The notes under the pieces: model-generated
What the model was told of the DNA's origin: nothing
Databases searched by the model: none
What the model saw: only the letters and a program-made list of their open reading frames with translations
Shown here: one piece after another, positions 3,950-13,641 of the stretch
Numbering within the stretch: the first letter of the stretch is position 1
Layout of the letters: each line of letters begins with the position of its first letter
Assembly (NCBI GenBank): GCA_025354785.1
Contig: JANXME010000184.1
Coordinates: forward strand, 1 to 46,540
From: Actinomycetes bacterium
GTDB taxonomy: Bacteria > Actinomycetota > Actinomycetes > Nanopelagicales > Nanopelagicaceae
Direction: 5' to 3'
Length of the DNA stretch: 46,540 bases
Translations under genes and position numbers: made by a program

Positions 3950-5713
3950 ATGGCTTCCAAATTAATAAACATCACAGCTGTTACGACTGTGTTATCACAG
4001 CCTTCCCCAACATATGCATTGGTGGTTGATAGTACGTCCGGCATTGTTGTAAACGATTATATAAGCGATAATGAGGGCGGAGTCTATCATATAACAATCA
4101 TTAGCGATGCAACAAATCTGACGGCGATAGATGACACAGACATAACACCAGAAGGCGTACCGGTCATTGGCGTGGGATCATGTTTTACGCCTACAAATGC
4201 ATTAAAGTTATCTCAGGCGCCATTCAATACTCCAGGTTGGGGTGAAATAGCACGTCGAGACATGCGGGCGATTGACGCGGGCGCGAATAGTTCTACCAGA
4301 TCTGCTACATCTGCATCGATTACGTATTATGTAGATCCAGCAGGTAGTGATGTCACAGGTAGCGGCTCTATAACACTGCCATTTCGGTCAATCCAATATG
4401 CCCTAGACAGCATACCCAAACGTGTACGGCATATAGTCAATATTAAAGTCAGTGCTGGAACATACAATGGTTTTACTTTAAATGGATTTGTGTTCGACCC
4501 AATCATCCCTGGTAGTGCTACGGGCATCAGCATATTAGGAACGTGGGTCAATTTCGCTCCTGCGACGGGAGCGGCTACTGGAACATTGTCTTCAGTTGCG
4601 GCTGGCACAAGCAATCCAGTTACGTGGGCAGTTCTAACCGATGCAGGCCAGACTTGGACCACAGACAATTTGAAAGGCAAGTTTATAAATATACTTACTG
4701 GTACGAGTGCTGGAACGATTTTGCCGATAGCATCAAACACGGCTACCAATCTTGCTGTAATAAGTTCTAGTGCATTAGGTTCGATCGGCGGCACATATGC
4801 GATTATAGATTCTGCTTCAATTGTAAATACTCCAGTCGAGGTGCCGAATAGTTTGCCCGCTGTGCAAGGTACACCCACGATAGCAGCCGCGCACGCTACT
4901 ATTAACGTCTATGGCAATATAGGATCAGCTGTTAACAACTCATTAATTAGATTCGAAGCCTTGAAGACGGCGGCGGCGGCGTTTTATGGATTTTTCACGG
5001 AAGGTAATCAGGCAATCACTATTGCACGCTGTCAGATTACTGGTGCGGTTACTGGCTCTGGATTGAGTATGCTTGGGCCGGGCAGAACAACTTTAACTCA
5101 ATCGATAGTTAATTTGACCACTGGAAGTGGAACATCGATTGCCGCTGCTGCCGGAGCCACCCAGACCAGCGTCATTTCTACACTAACAACTTGCACCACT
5201 GGTGGCATAGGTAATAATGCAATCACTGTTGGAAGTATTAGCGGCCCTTTTTCATCCACCACCTTAGTTCAAGTGCAGATAGATTCGCATTTAGTCGGAA
5301 TTTTATCTGCGGGCAATGTGGCTATATCATTGTCTTCCGTTAGAATTAGTGGGGCGGGCGGCCAGCTTATTAAGGCAGATCCGGCACACAATGCTCAAGC
5401 TCAAACAATCATCGTAGTTGCATCTGGGCTAGATCTTAGCAATTCAGGAGCAAGCACTGCCGTCCAATTGGGAGGCCCGCAAGCGTTCCTAACTTGCGTT
5501 GTGAGTGCTTCGACTGGAACGATAACAGGCTCTGGCAACTCAATCGCTTTTGCGGTGGAACAAGGAGCTAGAGTTCAGGTGTCAGCTGCGTCCACCATAA
5601 CTGGCACCACTGAGATTTTATTGGATAGTATGCCGCATACTTTAGCTGAAATGAGAGCACAATCACCTAAAGTACTTAATAACCTTAGTTATTTTTCTTG
5701 TGTGTTTGAGTAA
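3950..5713 (+). CDS. Beta-helix-type virion protein (587 aa), paralogue of the next gene
   Basis: Residues about 125-160 carry the pattern TYYVDPAGSDVTGSGS...LPFRSIQYALDSIP, the usual opening of phage right-handed beta-helix (pectate-lyase-like) proteins. The remainder is a long run of Gly/Ser/Thr/Ile-rich strands (GNVAISLSSVRISGAG and similar), as expected for stacked coils. About residues 200-290 include WTTDNLKGK and LPIASNTATN and are clearly homologous to the protein encoded at 5717-6580. No catalytic residues can be named. Known beta-helix proteins of this kind are tailspikes that bind or cut surface glycans; whether this one is a tail or head appendage is not visible. The C-terminus (NNLSYFSCVFE) may be a trimerisation tip. 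Confidence 0.8.
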   Translation: MASKLINITAVTTVLSQPSPTYALVVDSTSGIVVNDYISDNEGGVYHITIISDATNLTAIDDTDITPEGVPVIGVGSCFTPTNALKLSQAPFNTPGWGEIARRDMRAIDAGANSSTRSATSASITYYVDPAGSDVTGSGSITLPFRSIQYALDSIPKRVRHIVNIKVSAGTYNGFTLNGFVFDPIIPGSATGISILGTWVNFAPATGAATGTLSSVAAGTSNPVTWAVLTDAGQTWTTDNLKGKFINILTGTSAGTILPIASNTATNLAVISSSALGSIGGTYAIIDSASIVNTPVEVPNSLPAVQGTPTIAAAHATINVYGNIGSAVNNSLIRFEALKTAAAAFYGFFTEGNQAITIARCQITGAVTGSGLSMLGPGRTTLTQSIVNLTTGSGTSIAAAAGATQTSVISTLTTCTTGGIGNNAITVGSISGPFSSTTLVQVQIDSHLVGILSAGNVAISLSSVRISGAGGQLIKADPAHNAQAQTIIVVASGLDLSNSGASTAVQLGGPQAFLTCVVSASTGTITGSGNSIAFAVEQGARVQVSAASTITGTTEILLDSMPHTLAEMRAQSPKVLNNLSYFSCVFE

Positions 5714-8056: not shown

Positions 8057-9184
8057 ATGTCAGTTAATGACCGCCAAGATATAGTGCAGCAAGCAACTGT
8101 TCCAGACAATCTGGATCAGGGACCACGATTTGGTACTGTTACCGAATTGGTGAAGGACGTGTTTGTATTAGAACTTAGACATTTTTTCAATACTGCATAC
8201 ACGCAAGTTCGTAATGGCGAACTTCCCAGAATAGACAAGTATTCGGTTGCGGTTGATGTGACAACCGATCCGCTTGAGACTGCTGTTAGTTTGATCAGAA
8301 GTTATCCAGACATCACTGAAGATATGCCTTTAATTGCCGTTTTGGCTACTACAGGCAGGAATATGCGTCTGAGCATTAGTGACCATCTTACATCTATAGT
8401 TGTGCCCAATGCTAAGGTGATCAGTAATGTGCATGGCTCATATGCACTTACCGACGGTATGACCCTAATAGTAGAATCTCAGCCCGATGGTGTTGTGTCA
8501 AGTATACGTCAGTCAACATTTAAATTTCCCGCATTCATGTTTCAAAATATCGCCGCAGCCACCGTGGATGAGATAGTGTCTGTCATCAATTTTCAGGCGC
8601 TGTATGTGACTGCCTACAAAGAAAATGTCGGTGGTGAGATCAGGTTAGCTATTAAGGCCGGCGGGCCGAATGGAACTCAATTTCCAAATAAGATAACTAT
8701 TAAGACAGGTGGTACTGCCACAGCCATACTAGGATTTGCAGTAGATCAGACAGATCAGAATTATGGTGTGGGCAAGAAGGCAATGTTTAGACACCATACA
8801 TGTTCAGATGTGACCATGGCCATAGAGGTGGTTGCAGAATCGGAAAATATTAGGACTGAGCTCACAGATTTGCTAGTTAGTTTTTTGACATATGTGTTGG
8901 CAGATCGCAAATATACATTTTATGGTCGTAGCACATATGATAGTACTATCCAAGATGAAACATATCAAATAATTATTCGCGATAATGAAATAAGCTTGTC
9001 TGGTGAATCAGAGATACCACGTCAAGGTGACATGCGTGATAAAATATATGTCAATCGCATAACTGTTCCAGTAACAGCGCTGCAATTTTCAGACCGTACC
9101 GCCACAAATGCTAATGGGTCTATTACAACGCCGTTGGTGCAATTACTTATTCAACCAAACGATAGTTTGCCAGAGCCTAACTAA
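8057..9184 (+). CDS. Head-tail region structural protein (375 aa) with sheath-type insert domain
   Basis: The N-terminal about 120 residues (LVKDVFVLELRHFFN, SYPDITEDMPLIAVLATTGR) look like a compact alpha/beta domain. Residues about 125-235 carry a pattern also seen twice in the tail sheath and once in the 1077-aa protein at 29956: D-G-x-T-L-x-V, then ATVDEIVSVIN, GGEIRLAIKAGG, and TATAILGF. The C-terminal region (LTDLLVSFLTYVLADRKYTF...) may mediate assembly, and resembles in general layout a tail terminator or neck protein. Immediately downstream an HNH endonuclease gene separates it from the sheath gene. The role in tail completion or neck is an inference from position. Confidence 0.72.
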   Translation: MSVNDRQDIVQQATVPDNLDQGPRFGTVTELVKDVFVLELRHFFNTAYTQVRNGELPRIDKYSVAVDVTTDPLETAVSLIRSYPDITEDMPLIAVLATTGRNMRLSISDHLTSIVVPNAKVISNVHGSYALTDGMTLIVESQPDGVVSSIRQSTFKFPAFMFQNIAAATVDEIVSVINFQALYVTAYKENVGGEIRLAIKAGGPNGTQFPNKITIKTGGTATAILGFAVDQTDQNYGVGKKAMFRHHTCSDVTMAIEVVAESENIRTELTDLLVSFLTYVLADRKYTFYGRSTYDSTIQDETYQIIIRDNEISLSGESEIPRQGDMRDKIYVNRITVPVTALQFSDRTATNANGSITTPLVQLLIQPNDSLPEPN

Positions 9185-9198
9185 TTACTGGATGTGGC

Positions 9199-9708
9199 AT
9201 GGGTCGGTATCATTTATCTATGCAGAACCACAAAGAGAAAGTATGCTCTAAATGTAATATTCCCAAAAATATTTCATGCTTTGGGAAAAGATCTAGTAGG
9301 AAATCGGGCGTGCGATCGGCCTGCAGGCAATGCGAAAGTTTGTATCAAAAGACTCCACAGGCTAAAGCGAGTAAAAGTCGCACATTTAGAAACAATGGTA
9401 GATATATACATGTCGTATTGGCTGCTAAGCGGCGTGGATTGGAGTGGACAATAACTAGAGAAGATTTCAACCGTTTGATGCTAGGTGTATGTACTTACTG
9501 TGGCGATTCTATAGCTGGCACCGGATCAAGTCTTGACAGAGTAGACAATACTAACGGCTACACACTAGATAATATTGTTCCATGTTGCAAAGATTGTAAT
9601 TGGGCACGTAGTGACCGGTTTACTTATGCCGAGATGAAGACACTAATGGGTCCAGCAATACGTGAGATTAAATTATTACGTATGACAAACGCCGATGGAG
9701 TAATATAA
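9199..9708 (+). CDS. HNH homing-type endonuclease
   Basis: The protein has an N-terminal Cys pair (CSKC at residues 16-19, CRQC at 42-45), typical of the zinc ribbon that precedes many phage HNH nucleases. An HNH core follows: CTYC (98-101), LDRVDNTNGY (112-121), DNIVPCCKDCN (124-134). Enzymes of this family cut DNA at specific sites and spread their own gene into nuclease-free alleles. The gene is free-standing, sits between the 375-aa structural gene and the tail sheath, and ends one base before the sheath ATG. The start is uncertain: ATG 9199, ATG 9220 or an upstream GTG at 9194 are possible, none with a good Shine-Dalgarno. The target is probably in the neighbouring structural genes (inference). 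Confidence 0.88.
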   Translation: MGRYHLSMQNHKEKVCSKCNIPKNISCFGKRSSRKSGVRSACRQCESLYQKTPQAKASKSRTFRNNGRYIHVVLAAKRRGLEWTITREDFNRLMLGVCTYCGDSIAGTGSSLDRVDNTNGYTLDNIVPCCKDCNWARSDRFTYAEMKTLMGPAIREIKLLRMTNADGVI

Positions 9709-9709
9709 T

Positions 9710-12181
9710 ATGTCTCTCGAAATAACCCAGTACACGGACCCCGGCGTCTATCAGGTAGAGCGGGTAGTGCCCGGCACCGCCAATGTTAGTTCAGTACCGT
9801 TAACCCTTACACTATTAGGCATAGCTAGTCGGAATAAGCGGGTAAGTAATGAGGCACTCACGCGCGGTCGTGTTTCTAATGAAGCTTTAACTGTAGGAGC
9901 AACTCCTGGAGCTCACACGTCGACGCTAATTAGTATTAGCAATCGTAAGAGCGCCCAGATGACGATTACTAAAGATGGGACTGCGCTAGATAGCACCCAA
10001 ATAGTATATCTTGCACCATTTAAGGCGGGCAACACCCTTACAACTTTAGATTTTACCACTAACAATAAGATCGCTCTTTCGTTTGATGGTAAGACTGACG
10101 TAACCATTGCGATTACAACTGGTGGCGCCGATCTGACCACGATCACTGGCGGTCTAATTACCCAACGTCTGCTTGGTTTGACCATTGGTGCTGTTACCGC
10201 TGCTCAGATTGCCGATGGTATTAACAAGGCGCTTAATGGCGCATCATCTTTGGGATATGGTTCAGCATATGCTGCGGTCGCCACGGTTAATACAAACGTA
10301 GTAACTTTAACTTCACCGACTAACAATTCTGCTTCAGACTTGCGCTTGTTTGTTGCCTTCCCAGCAGCGCAGTCTCAGACTGTCGCTGTAATGGGCGGTT
10401 CGATGCCATTTCAGGCACCGACAGTAATCAACATCAACAACGCTTCTTACTCTTCCCTCTCAACCTATATTGCATCTTACGTTGCGACAAATACTGATGT
10501 TGACGTATTGGTTAACACAAACGTGCAAGCTATGGTACGGGTTGGTTCATTTGCTGGAGTTACATCATTTATCGAGAATGTTGACTACACCCGTTCTAGC
10601 TCGAACTTGGATTTCTCAATTGATGCTGCCTCAGTATTTACCTCAAGTGTCGCCTCTGCCACCAAAGATATAAGCACCAACGATTCATTCCTAATTTCAC
10701 TAGATGGTCGCGCTTCAATCGCCATTGATCTAAACGCGCTCGCATCACCTCCTCCTGGCTACGCCAATCCAGGCTCTCCAGCTGCAGCCACCAATGCGGA
10801 AATTAATATTAATATAAACGCTATTTTAGCAAATAGCTCTGTATATGGACCGCGTTATGCTACTGTTGCGAGTGTTTCAGGCACACAGCTGGTATTAACT
10901 TCGCCAACTCAGGGCATCGCGAGCTTTGTCTCTATTGCAGCATCTCCTACGGTTAGTGCTGTAACAGCGCTATATGGTTTATCAGCGGGGCAACTACCAT
11001 ACACCCAAGCGGGCACCGGAGCTCGTCCATCCGCTGGCGCTATCTATTTTGCAAGCTACGATTACACCCGTCCATCTACCGACTACAATGCGCTCAAGAG
11101 ATATTTCACTCCTGACCAGGTATACGCAGACGTTGGGTTCCCAAGTGCAACCAATACTCTAGCCTTAGCTGCTGGTATCGCATTTGAGAACAATGCTCCA
11201 TCAGTAATTGTTTGTCAGGTAAATGACACCAGCTTTCCCGGCTCACCAACTCAAACTGAATTTTTGACTGCCCTCACCGCCACGAATTCATCTTCATCTG
11301 CAACCGACATTTGTTTGTTAACTACTGCATTGGCTTCGCAGGTTGATTTGTTAAACAACATCGTCAATCAAAATTCTCCAACAGAGAAAAATCCTCGGCG
11401 TGGTTGGTTTGGCATGGCACGTAACACCTTAGTCGGTGACAAAGACACTGCTGGTACATTCATCTATGCGTCAACTCGTACGCTTCAAGTTCCAGGCGAT
11501 TCGCCCGGTCGTGGTCGTATGATTTTGGCGGCTCCAGCGAACGTGTCTCGTGATATTACGCTATCGGATGGGTCGGTTGTTAATGTTCTCTTGGACGGCA
11601 CATACGTTGCCGCCGCTATTGCAGCGAAGATGACTTCGTTCAACAGTCCATCAGATACTTTAACACGCAAAAATATTTCTGGTTTCAAGATTGAGACTTT
11701 TCAGACATATCTCAAGCAAGAACGCGGGCTCTTGGCGAGCAATGGTTGTACCGTTGTTACGCAAGATGCGGGTCGTTTGGTTCTTCTTGATCCGATGTCT
11801 ACTGAGGGTGGTGGTGGTAAGGCCATTCAGTTCCAAGAAATCTCTGCTTCAACACAAAAGGACTCGGTTGTTGTTGGTATCAATGAGTCGCTCAACGCAA
11901 ATCTAGTTGGTGTTGTTCCATCCGACTTGGCCAACTTCATTCTAACTATCAAAGGATATCTTGGTGGAGTTATTCGTGCTTTGATCGCTCAAGGTGCAAT
12001 CGCTCCATATAAGACTGACGCTGGCGTGACGCGCGATATTGATTTTTCTAAGGATATTCAGGTGTTTCAGGATGCGACTGACCCTACCAAATATAGCTTT
12101 AAATACTTCTTCAACCTGAGATACCCGGCGAAGCGGTTCTTTGGCGAGTACTCTGTTGACAACCCTTTCTTTGGCACCTAA
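9710..12181 (+). CDS. Contractile tail sheath protein (823 aa)
   Basis: The N-terminus (TQYTDPGVYQVERVVPG) is the typical sheath beginning. The C-terminal half, from about residue 440, carries the conserved core and ends FKYFFNLRYPAKRFFGEYSV. Sheath proteins polymerise around the tail tube and contract to drive it through the host envelope. Two related extra domains are inserted at about residues 120-230 and 325-425. Both follow the scheme (D)G-x-x-x-x-I, T-A-A-Q-I-A/INxxL, Y-G-x-x-YAxVA, then VTLTSPT or VLTSPT. They probably sit on the outer surface and make the protein long. A short duplicated motif, RVSNEALT, occurs at residues 44-51 and 54-61 with different codons. The gene is flanked by two HNH endonuclease genes. 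Confidence 0.93.
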   Translation: MSLEITQYTDPGVYQVERVVPGTANVSSVPLTLTLLGIASRNKRVSNEALTRGRVSNEALTVGATPGAHTSTLISISNRKSAQMTITKDGTALDSTQIVYLAPFKAGNTLTTLDFTTNNKIALSFDGKTDVTIAITTGGADLTTITGGLITQRLLGLTIGAVTAAQIADGINKALNGASSLGYGSAYAAVATVNTNVVTLTSPTNNSASDLRLFVAFPAAQSQTVAVMGGSMPFQAPTVININNASYSSLSTYIASYVATNTDVDVLVNTNVQAMVRVGSFAGVTSFIENVDYTRSSSNLDFSIDAASVFTSSVASATKDISTNDSFLISLDGRASIAIDLNALASPPPGYANPGSPAAATNAEINININAILANSSVYGPRYATVASVSGTQLVLTSPTQGIASFVSIAASPTVSAVTALYGLSAGQLPYTQAGTGARPSAGAIYFASYDYTRPSTDYNALKRYFTPDQVYADVGFPSATNTLALAAGIAFENNAPSVIVCQVNDTSFPGSPTQTEFLTALTATNSSSSATDICLLTTALASQVDLLNNIVNQNSPTEKNPRRGWFGMARNTLVGDKDTAGTFIYASTRTLQVPGDSPGRGRMILAAPANVSRDITLSDGSVVNVLLDGTYVAAAIAAKMTSFNSPSDTLTRKNISGFKIETFQTYLKQERGLLASNGCTVVTQDAGRLVLLDPMSTEGGGGKAIQFQEISASTQKDSVVVGINESLNANLVGVVPSDLANFILTIKGYLGGVIRALIAQGAIAPYKTDAGVTRDIDFSKDIQVFQDATDPTKYSFKYFFNLRYPAKRFFGEYSVDNPFFGT

Positions 12182-12217
12182 GAATCGTTAGTAAGCTTTA
12201 ATTAATTTACCGGTGAC

Positions 12218-12244
12218 TCTCCTGTGTTATTTATTCACAGGAGA
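12218..12244 (+). promoter_or_regulatory. RNA hairpin sequestering the Shine-Dalgarno of the downstream HNH gene
   Basis: TCTCCTGTG (12218-12226) and CACAGGAGA (12236-12244) form a perfect 9-bp stem with a 9-base AT-rich loop. The 3' arm contains AGGAG (12239-12243), the only good Shine-Dalgarno for the GTG start at 12250. A folded transcript would hide the ribosome site. T4 homing endonuclease genes are known to be held back by such hairpins in long read-through transcripts; the same use here is inferred. Confidence 0.72.
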
Positions 12245-12249
12245 TAACC

Positions 12250-13080
12250 GTGTCAAAAGAAACTCAAAAACAATTGTATGCTCAGCGTGTGGCTGCTGGA
12301 CTTTGTACACGCTGTAGTAGCAAGGTTGAGATTGTCGGCAAGAAGAAGTGCGACACTTGTGCCACTTCTTATAGGTCGATGCGTAAAAAGATCAAAGATG
12401 CTGGCTTGTGTGGGCACTGTCTAAAGAATCCAATCGTTGATGGCTATAAATCATGTCAGACCTGCATTGACAATAGACGTGAAGAGTACGATAGTTCTGC
12501 AGAACAGACATATCGACATGACTTAAGAAATAGACATAAAGATGCTGGCTTATGCATCACCTGTGCCAATCCTCATAAGACAGATTCTGTTCAGTGTCAA
12601 GCCTGCATTGATGTAACAGTCACCAAAAATAGCCATAGGAGAATGGATCGGATTTTGAAGAAACTTTGTGTTATGTGCGGGAAAGGTACTCCCATTGATG
12701 GCAAGATTACCTGTGAATTGTGCATCGGCAAGAGTAAAGTACGGTATATTGCAGACATAGAACATCGCAGAGCCCAGGCCAGAATAAACTATCATTCTCG
12801 ATACACAGCCCTCAAAGTCGCTGTGTACCACGCCTATGGTGATATGTGTAAATGTTGTAAATCTGTCGCAAATGAATCATTTACTCTTGATCACGTGAAC
12901 AATGACGGAAATGCTCATCGTGACATATTGTCTACTAAAGGTGGGGAGACTATGTTACGTTGGATTCGCGACAATGATTTCCCATCGTCTATTCAGCTTT
13001 TGTGTGGCAATTGTCATCTTGCTAAGACCAGACAATTGCCATGTACGCATTTGCTGGCCGTTTCTAAGGCCAGCATTTAG
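12250..13080 (+). CDS. HNH endonuclease with four zinc-finger repeats (276 aa)
   Basis: The GTG start at 12250 is chosen because of the AGGAG six bases upstream. Four consecutive CxxC...CxxC modules occupy about residues 19-37, 54-72, 102-119 and 140-158, each of the form G-L/K-C-x-x-C ... C-x-x-C. A short basic linker (about 160-190) leads to an HNH-like core: CKCC (200-203), TLDHVNNDG (212-220, catalytic His at 215), and LLCGNCHLAKTR (250-261). The family cuts DNA as a homing-type nuclease; here the zinc fingers probably provide sequence recognition. It interrupts the sheath-tube gene order. Its own mRNA start is hidden in a hairpin. It is not closely similar to the HNH protein at 9199-9708, so the two insertions are probably independent. 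Confidence 0.88.
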   Translation: MSKETQKQLYAQRVAAGLCTRCSSKVEIVGKKKCDTCATSYRSMRKKIKDAGLCGHCLKNPIVDGYKSCQTCIDNRREEYDSSAEQTYRHDLRNRHKDAGLCITCANPHKTDSVQCQACIDVTVTKNSHRRMDRILKKLCVMCGKGTPIDGKITCELCIGKSKVRYIADIEHRRAQARINYHSRYTALKVAVYHAYGDMCKCCKSVANESFTLDHVNNDGNAHRDILSTKGGETMLRWIRDNDFPSSIQLLCGNCHLAKTRQLPCTHLLAVSKASI

Positions 13081-13161: not shown

Positions 13162-13641
13162 ATGCCTCCTACATACCCCAAAACACAGTATAATCCGCCA
13201 GATACGCTGGTTCGTACAAGCCACTCCTTAACCATCGTTGTTAATGGTAAGTCGATCGGTCTGATTAATGGTTGGAACCCCAATCAGACCCGCACTATCA
13301 CGCCTATCTACGAATTGAATGCCGAAACATCGGGATTGGTTCTTGAAAACATTCCAGGCAATATGGGTGGATTGACTGTTTCTGTAAGTCGGTACGATAT
13401 CTGGCCGACTAGAATGGAGGAGGTCTTTGGCACAGTTGATCTAACCATGTTGAGCAACCAACAGACGCCTTTCTCTGTTCAAGAAAGATGGAACTCGCCT
13501 ACCGGTGGTCTAGAAGTATGGCAGTATGAAGGATGCTGGTTTTCTTCAATCGGAAGGTCATTCCGCAGTGATGACACCCGGATTGTTAACGTAAATGCTA
13601 CACTATCGTACGTATTTCGTTCGAAGATCCAGGGTTTGTAA
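13162..13641 (+). CDS. Tail tube protein (159 aa)
   Basis: Length, position and character fit a myovirus tail tube monomer: a small beta-rich protein between the sheath and the tail assembly chaperones. Visible segments include HSLTIVVNGKSIGLINGW near the N-terminus, GNMGGLTVSVSRYDIW in the middle, and SYVFRSKIQGL at the end. Tube monomers stack as hexameric rings inside the sheath and conduct the DNA. An AAGAG (13150-13154) lies seven bases before the ATG. The insertion of the HNH gene separates it from the sheath, with which it is normally co-transcribed. A perfect small stem-loop spans its stop codon. Confidence 0.82.
   Translation: MPPTYPKTQYNPPDTLVRTSHSLTIVVNGKSIGLINGWNPNQTRTITPIYELNAETSGLVLENIPGNMGGLTVSVSRYDIWPTRMEEVFGTVDLTMLSNQQTPFSVQERWNSPTGGLEVWQYEGCWFSSIGRSFRSDDTRIVNVNATLSYVFRSKIQGL

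Follow-up and report, generated by a model that had tools for sequence, protein, structure and literature searches.

In the 46,540-nt stretch of DNA analyzed here (contig C49, referred to as the window), the Shine-Dalgarno (SD) sequence of a free-standing HNH endonuclease gene, probably a homing endonuclease gene, lies within a perfect hairpin between the tail sheath and tail tube genes, and this hairpin is likely to act in cis as a translational lock on the nuclease. The lock is supported because the predicted energy required to open the SD is exceptional, sampled relatives lack both the HNH gene and the hairpin, locks of this kind have been documented in T4-type phages, and analogous hairpins with covarying stems precede other HNH genes.

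A stable hairpin is predicted to sequester the ribosome binding site of the HNH gene

The hairpin occupies positions 12218-12244 of the + strand (TCTCCTGTG-TTATTTATT-CACAGGAGA) and consists of a 5' arm (12218-12226), an AU-rich loop of 9 nt (12227-12235) and a 3' arm (12236-12244), with nine of nine positions paired in the stem. The SD (AGGAG, 12239-12243) is contained in the 3' arm, 6 nt 5' of the GTG start codon at 12250. An outer helix (12209-12253) was additionally predicted, in which 12211-12214 pairs with 12247-12250 and 12209-12210 with 12252-12253, such that G12250 and G12252 of the start codon are also paired. A previous sequence-only reading of this DNA had proposed a perfect 9-bp stem enclosing the AGGAG of GTG 12250, which both the sequence and the predicted fold confirmed. 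The 101-nt segment carrying the hairpin had a minimum free energy of -22.5 kcal/mol (z = -2.27), and in the fold model each of the nine stem pairs formed with a probability of 0.956 to 1.0 in contexts of up to ~830 nt. The SD was predicted to be unpaired 0.6% of the time at 37 °C, with an opening energy of 15.9 kcal/mol. SD and start codon are thus predicted to be held, fully and in part, respectively, in a stable cis hairpin, as in known hairpins that sequester ribosome binding sites (RBSs). An RNA thermometer was ruled out, as the SD remained ~97% paired even at 65 °C in the model.

The strength of this pairing was assessed by shuffling the upstream 48 nt while the SD and coding start were held fixed. 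An opening energy of 15.9 kcal/mol was reached by only 1 of 3000 shuffles, which averaged 5.2 kcal/mol. When 258 starts from this contig, contig C128 of the same assembly and 12 relative loci were scored, GTG 12250 ranked third, behind a 48-codon TTG ORF in L017 and a start in L003, and it was the highest among true gene starts scored on this contig and C128. The next highest start in C128 (C128:6523) was rejected as a second lock, being internal to a longer ORF.

The HNH gene and its hairpin appear to be inserted at the sheath/tube junction

The locked gene (12250-13080, + strand) encodes a 276-aa product with repeated CxxC pairs followed by a C-terminal HNH domain, in which the catalytic motif (DH 214-215 and LCGNC 251-255) was identified by alignment with annotated HNH proteins. 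Comparison with annotated phage HNH proteins using tblastn gave a best E-value of 4e-11 and the match to phrog_333 was weak (E 0.011), while a Pfam search of the product returned no HNH domain match. AlphaFold2 produced a model with a pLDDT of 87.4 and a pTM of 0.45; a structure search with this model gave no significant match, with HNH-type folds appearing only at E > 0.9. A further perfect stem of 11 bp (TGGCAATTGTC/GACAATTGCCA, 13005-13041) is located inside the 3' end of the gene.

Upstream lies a tail sheath gene (9710-12181, + strand; 25% identity to an annotated Gordonia phage tail sheath and 50% to Virus Rctr197k), and downstream a tail tube-type gene (13162-13641, + strand; phrog_985 virion structural protein, E 1.2e-5) that is conserved beside the sheath gene in relatives. 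Among 14 relative contigs (some near-identical, with L003 and L015 being one contig), the sheath and tube genes are adjacent, 11-92 nt apart, with neither an HNH gene nor a hairpin between them, and none of the sheath-adjacent tube genes scored possessed a comparable lock. Virus Rctr197k carries a different, endonuclease VII-like HNH gene at the same junction. Judged by these comparisons, the HNH gene is an insertion between the sheath and tube genes, which bears out the placement of a nuclease gene in a sheath-tube region by the sequence-only reading; its position beside a conserved gene and its absence from the 14 contigs are what is expected of a homing endonuclease. Because sampled relatives without the HNH gene are also without the hairpin, and the HNH gene of Rctr197k differs, the hairpin is best regarded as belonging to a mobile HNH cassette.

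A second nuclease gene, endonuclease VII-like and of HNH type, lies immediately before the sheath gene in the window (9199-9708, + strand; phrog_1035, E 1e-27), and folding of its start revealed neither a strong SD nor a lock. A relative of this gene occupies the same place before the sheath in L014, and Virus Rctr197k has a LAGLIDADG gene just upstream of its sheath gene. Mobile nuclease genes of differing types were thus found flanking the sheath (window 9199-9708; L008:5047-5934 and 8842-9573; L014:2588-3460), and from these positions the sheath flanks look like recurrent insertion points, or hot spots, for mobile nucleases. In L002, a conserved tail gene lies ahead of the sheath, and upstream of it the gene at L002:288-1823 encodes a protein that begins with an HTH and matches Mom-like DNA modification and homing endonuclease families. 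Elsewhere in the same assembly, another HNH gene begins 16 nt past the end of a perfect 9-bp stem (CATGGACAC/GTGTCCATG; G000:C128:36133-36162, equivalent to L005:1440-1469), which lies beside the SD region of that gene without covering it, and on the - strand of C128 (G000:C128:7264-7786) an HNH gene is apparently split into overlapping frames of 103 and 93 aa, possibly by a frameshift.

Occluded ribosome binding sites in distant HNH relatives

Close homologues of the HNH gene were found neither in viral contigs and phages nor in its own genome and ~400 genomes of the phylum, which yielded distant relatives only, and at the DNA level the junction sequence had no match in the phage collection. 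An Rfam search of the window also gave no match. Distant HNH relatives were therefore compared as families defined by stricter clusters, a first clustering having chained almost all of them into one group. With a strong SD defined as -6 kcal/mol or better and occlusion as at least 8 kcal/mol, occluded strong-SD RBSs were more common in HNH families (12 of 37) than in neighboring genes (31 of 423; p = 3e-5). The excess was also seen among genes without an overlapping upstream gene (10/24 HNH families versus 23/253 neighbors) and when only ATG starts were counted (7/26 versus 23/327, p = 0.003), with p rising to 0.08 for ATG starts at a cut-off of 9 kcal/mol. As the cut-offs were picked after looking at the data and starts were chosen mechanically, some of them being doubtful, the excess is suggestive only. 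Individual HNH leaders showed further arrangements: an RBS hairpin overlapping a TTGACA-17-TATATT promoter-like pair at L157:3925-4010, and stems that include the start codon itself (CATGTAA-gatga-TTACATG) at L191:3746 and L194:3755.

One HNH subfamily (L204-L267; 64 loci with a full-length start, 46 distinct leaders) carries a two-part hairpin of two stacked stems with the SD in its 3' arm (e.g., L204:2451-2503). In the two members examined, L204 and L262, the HNH gene is located between the head scaffolding and P22-type coat genes. Across 22 distinct ungapped sequences, 98.5% of cells were paired and 22 were double-changed, compared to 7.7 in shuffles (reached in 0 of 500), with five pairs changing on both sides; sliding the partner strand destroyed the signal. 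A -10-like hexamer was present within the hairpin in all 46 distinct leaders (TATGAT in 17, TACAAT in 10, TATAAT in 7, TATTAT in 5, and others), and in nearly all leaders the upstream gene ends near the 5' arm, with its stop codon 41-55 nt ahead of the HNH start. Since the scaffold-coat gap is only 8 and 14 nt in two close relatives without the HNH gene, hairpin and gene arrive as one insert. Rfam searches of five subfamily HNH loci gave no match, and this hairpin is possibly an RNA motif not yet described that bears a promoter inside the lock.

The subfamily leader resembles the window in that an HNH gene in a structural operon has its SD in the 3' arm of a hairpin that is missing where the HNH gene is missing. 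It differs in its two stacked stems, its covariation, the -10-like hexamer of its loop and a 5' arm near the upstream stop codon. Because a covariance model of the subfamily hairpin (R1) did not match the window at E <= 1, the subfamily hairpin is an analogue, not a relative, of the window hairpin.

The T4 parallel extends to the proposed lock and not to its timing

Hairpin control of homing endonucleases has precedents in T4-type phages (PMC2988022, PMC3014915). The SDs of I-TevI, I-TevII, I-TevIII, segB and mobE of Aeromonas phage Aeh1 are located in RBS-sequestering hairpins, and a late promoter immediately upstream of I-TevI produces transcripts that lack the 5' part, with similar arrangements reported for the other four (PMC2988022). 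Genes locked in this way are late genes that appear on the mRNAs of early and middle products (PMC2988022). The window shares with T4 I-TevI, I-TevII, I-TevIII and segB a homing endonuclease SD locked on a long transcript, but the I-Tev genes are intron-encoded, segB is of GIY-YIG type, and in T4 their hairpins keep early/middle expression apart from late expression. In T4 genes e, soc and 49, the SD, the start codon or both are likewise hidden on long transcripts, gene e being the well-documented case, released by late promoters, but these genes are not mobile nuclease cassettes in structural operons. Aeh1 mobE (Gibb and Edgell 2007, 2009, as reviewed in PMC2988022) is also a free-standing HNH gene beside essential phage genes with its SD paired in a stable hairpin. 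The gene into which it is inserted, however, encodes a ribonucleotide reductase, and its hairpin is classed among those with a late promoter, whereas the window gene has tail-gene neighbors, no promoter was found for it, and its phage is not recognizably T4-like.

The foremost alternative to a standing lock is a timed switch of the T4 type, in which a phage-specific promoter in or just before the hairpin would produce short late transcripts without the 5' arm and the SD would be free only on these. The documented control of I-TevI and its counterparts, together with the -10-like hexamer in every distinct scaffold/coat leader, favors such a switch, but the window itself argues against it and we consider it unlikely. 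With promoters assumed to be of sigma-70-like or T4 late type, no promoter-like site was detected within the hairpin: the loop TTATTTATT has no TAnnnT hexamer and is not a repeated upstream motif, and the T4 late promoter TATAAATA is absent near the hairpin, occurring on the + strand of the window only at 4684, 32283 and 33214. The sole nearby sigma-70-like match (12156-12185) starts too early, as the resulting transcript would still carry the 5' arm. Judged by position only, the sheath and tube neighbors also do not place the HNH gene on early or middle transcripts, and, given the late-type structural gene ahead of it, an early/late switch does not suggest itself as the purpose of the lock. 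An early/late timing function is, on these sequence grounds, not supported here.

These observations bear on three proposals of the sequence-only reading. A promoter starting within the 5' arm of the hairpin, for which a search had been suggested, was not found. Action of the lock on read-through mRNA only would require another, shorter transcript and is not supported, as no promoter-like site was detected in the hairpin. The parallel with T4 endonuclease genes held for the lock, for which precedents are documented, and failed for a timing device, given the missing promoter and the late-type neighbor.

Coupling of the HNH gene to sheath translation is also unlikely because 36 nt separate the sheath stop codon from the 5' arm (27 nt from the outer helix), a distance that probably exceeds the reach of a terminating ribosome. 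Ribosomes finishing the sheath gene would then probably stop too far upstream to keep the hairpin open. In the translational lock that we propose, every transcript carrying the 5' arm would have its SD and some start-codon bases paired, 30S subunits would bind rarely, and little nuclease would be made despite its location in a structural operon. Release would presumably be limited to rare breathing of the stem, processing in the AU-rich loop or an unrecognized promoter. The simplest reading of the model is a throttle on the nuclease, in which both repression in the cell and homing activity of the HNH product are inferred.

Other explanations for the inverted repeat

An inverted repeat that arose by chance and has no function is slightly less probable than a timed switch. 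Eight perfect stems of at least 9 bp (loop 3-15 nt) are present in the window, compared to 2.2 expected from shuffles, mostly away from gene starts; because of this a perfect stem per se is weak evidence for function, and the covariation observed is that of other HNH leaders. The exact hairpin pattern had 13 matching stretches in viral contigs. The unusual point is the placement of the stem exactly on a strong SD, a coincidence matched by 1 of 3000 shuffles, and this, together with the independent, covariation-supported locks of distant HNH genes, speaks against chance.

The palindrome could alternatively function as DNA, serving as an operator for the zinc-ribbon region of the nuclease or for another repressor. 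Two 9-bp half-sites spaced 18 bp center to center, the repeated CxxC motifs of the HNH product and the known self-repression of I-TevI through binding of its own operator (PMC2988022) are consistent with this proposal. It is nevertheless improbable, as no promoter was found for an operator to overlap and one arm coincides exactly with the SD, a placement that an RNA lock accounts for with no additional assumption. Least probable of all is a role as a 3' end or processing structure, shielding the sheath mRNA or cutting the message between the sheath and HNH genes, for although the stem follows the sheath stop by 36 nt and its AU-rich loop might be cut by an RNase E-type enzyme, the stem has no U-tract, ruling out an intrinsic terminator, and relatives without the HNH gene have no stem at the sheath/tube junction.

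Discussion

Overall, the comparison with T4 applies to the lock but not to a timing device. Hairpin control of homing endonucleases was already described for T4 and its relatives; here a likely lock of this kind was found on a gene inserted between the sheath and tube genes of an unrelated phage, and a covarying one in a podovirus-type scaffold/coat HNH subfamily. Together, these cases suggest that mobile nuclease genes have, time and again, evolved translational locks of their own, which would help explain how such genes persist in operons whose disturbance would be too costly for the phage. More tentatively, and with the odds somewhat against it, HNH cassettes of many unrelated phages may carry their own 5' RBS-locking hairpin, in some families with a promoter in the loop, and may thereby sit between highly expressed structural genes (sheath/tube or scaffold/coat) and escape translation from the structural mRNA. 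If true, the T4 arrangement would exemplify a general rule that has evolved repeatedly.
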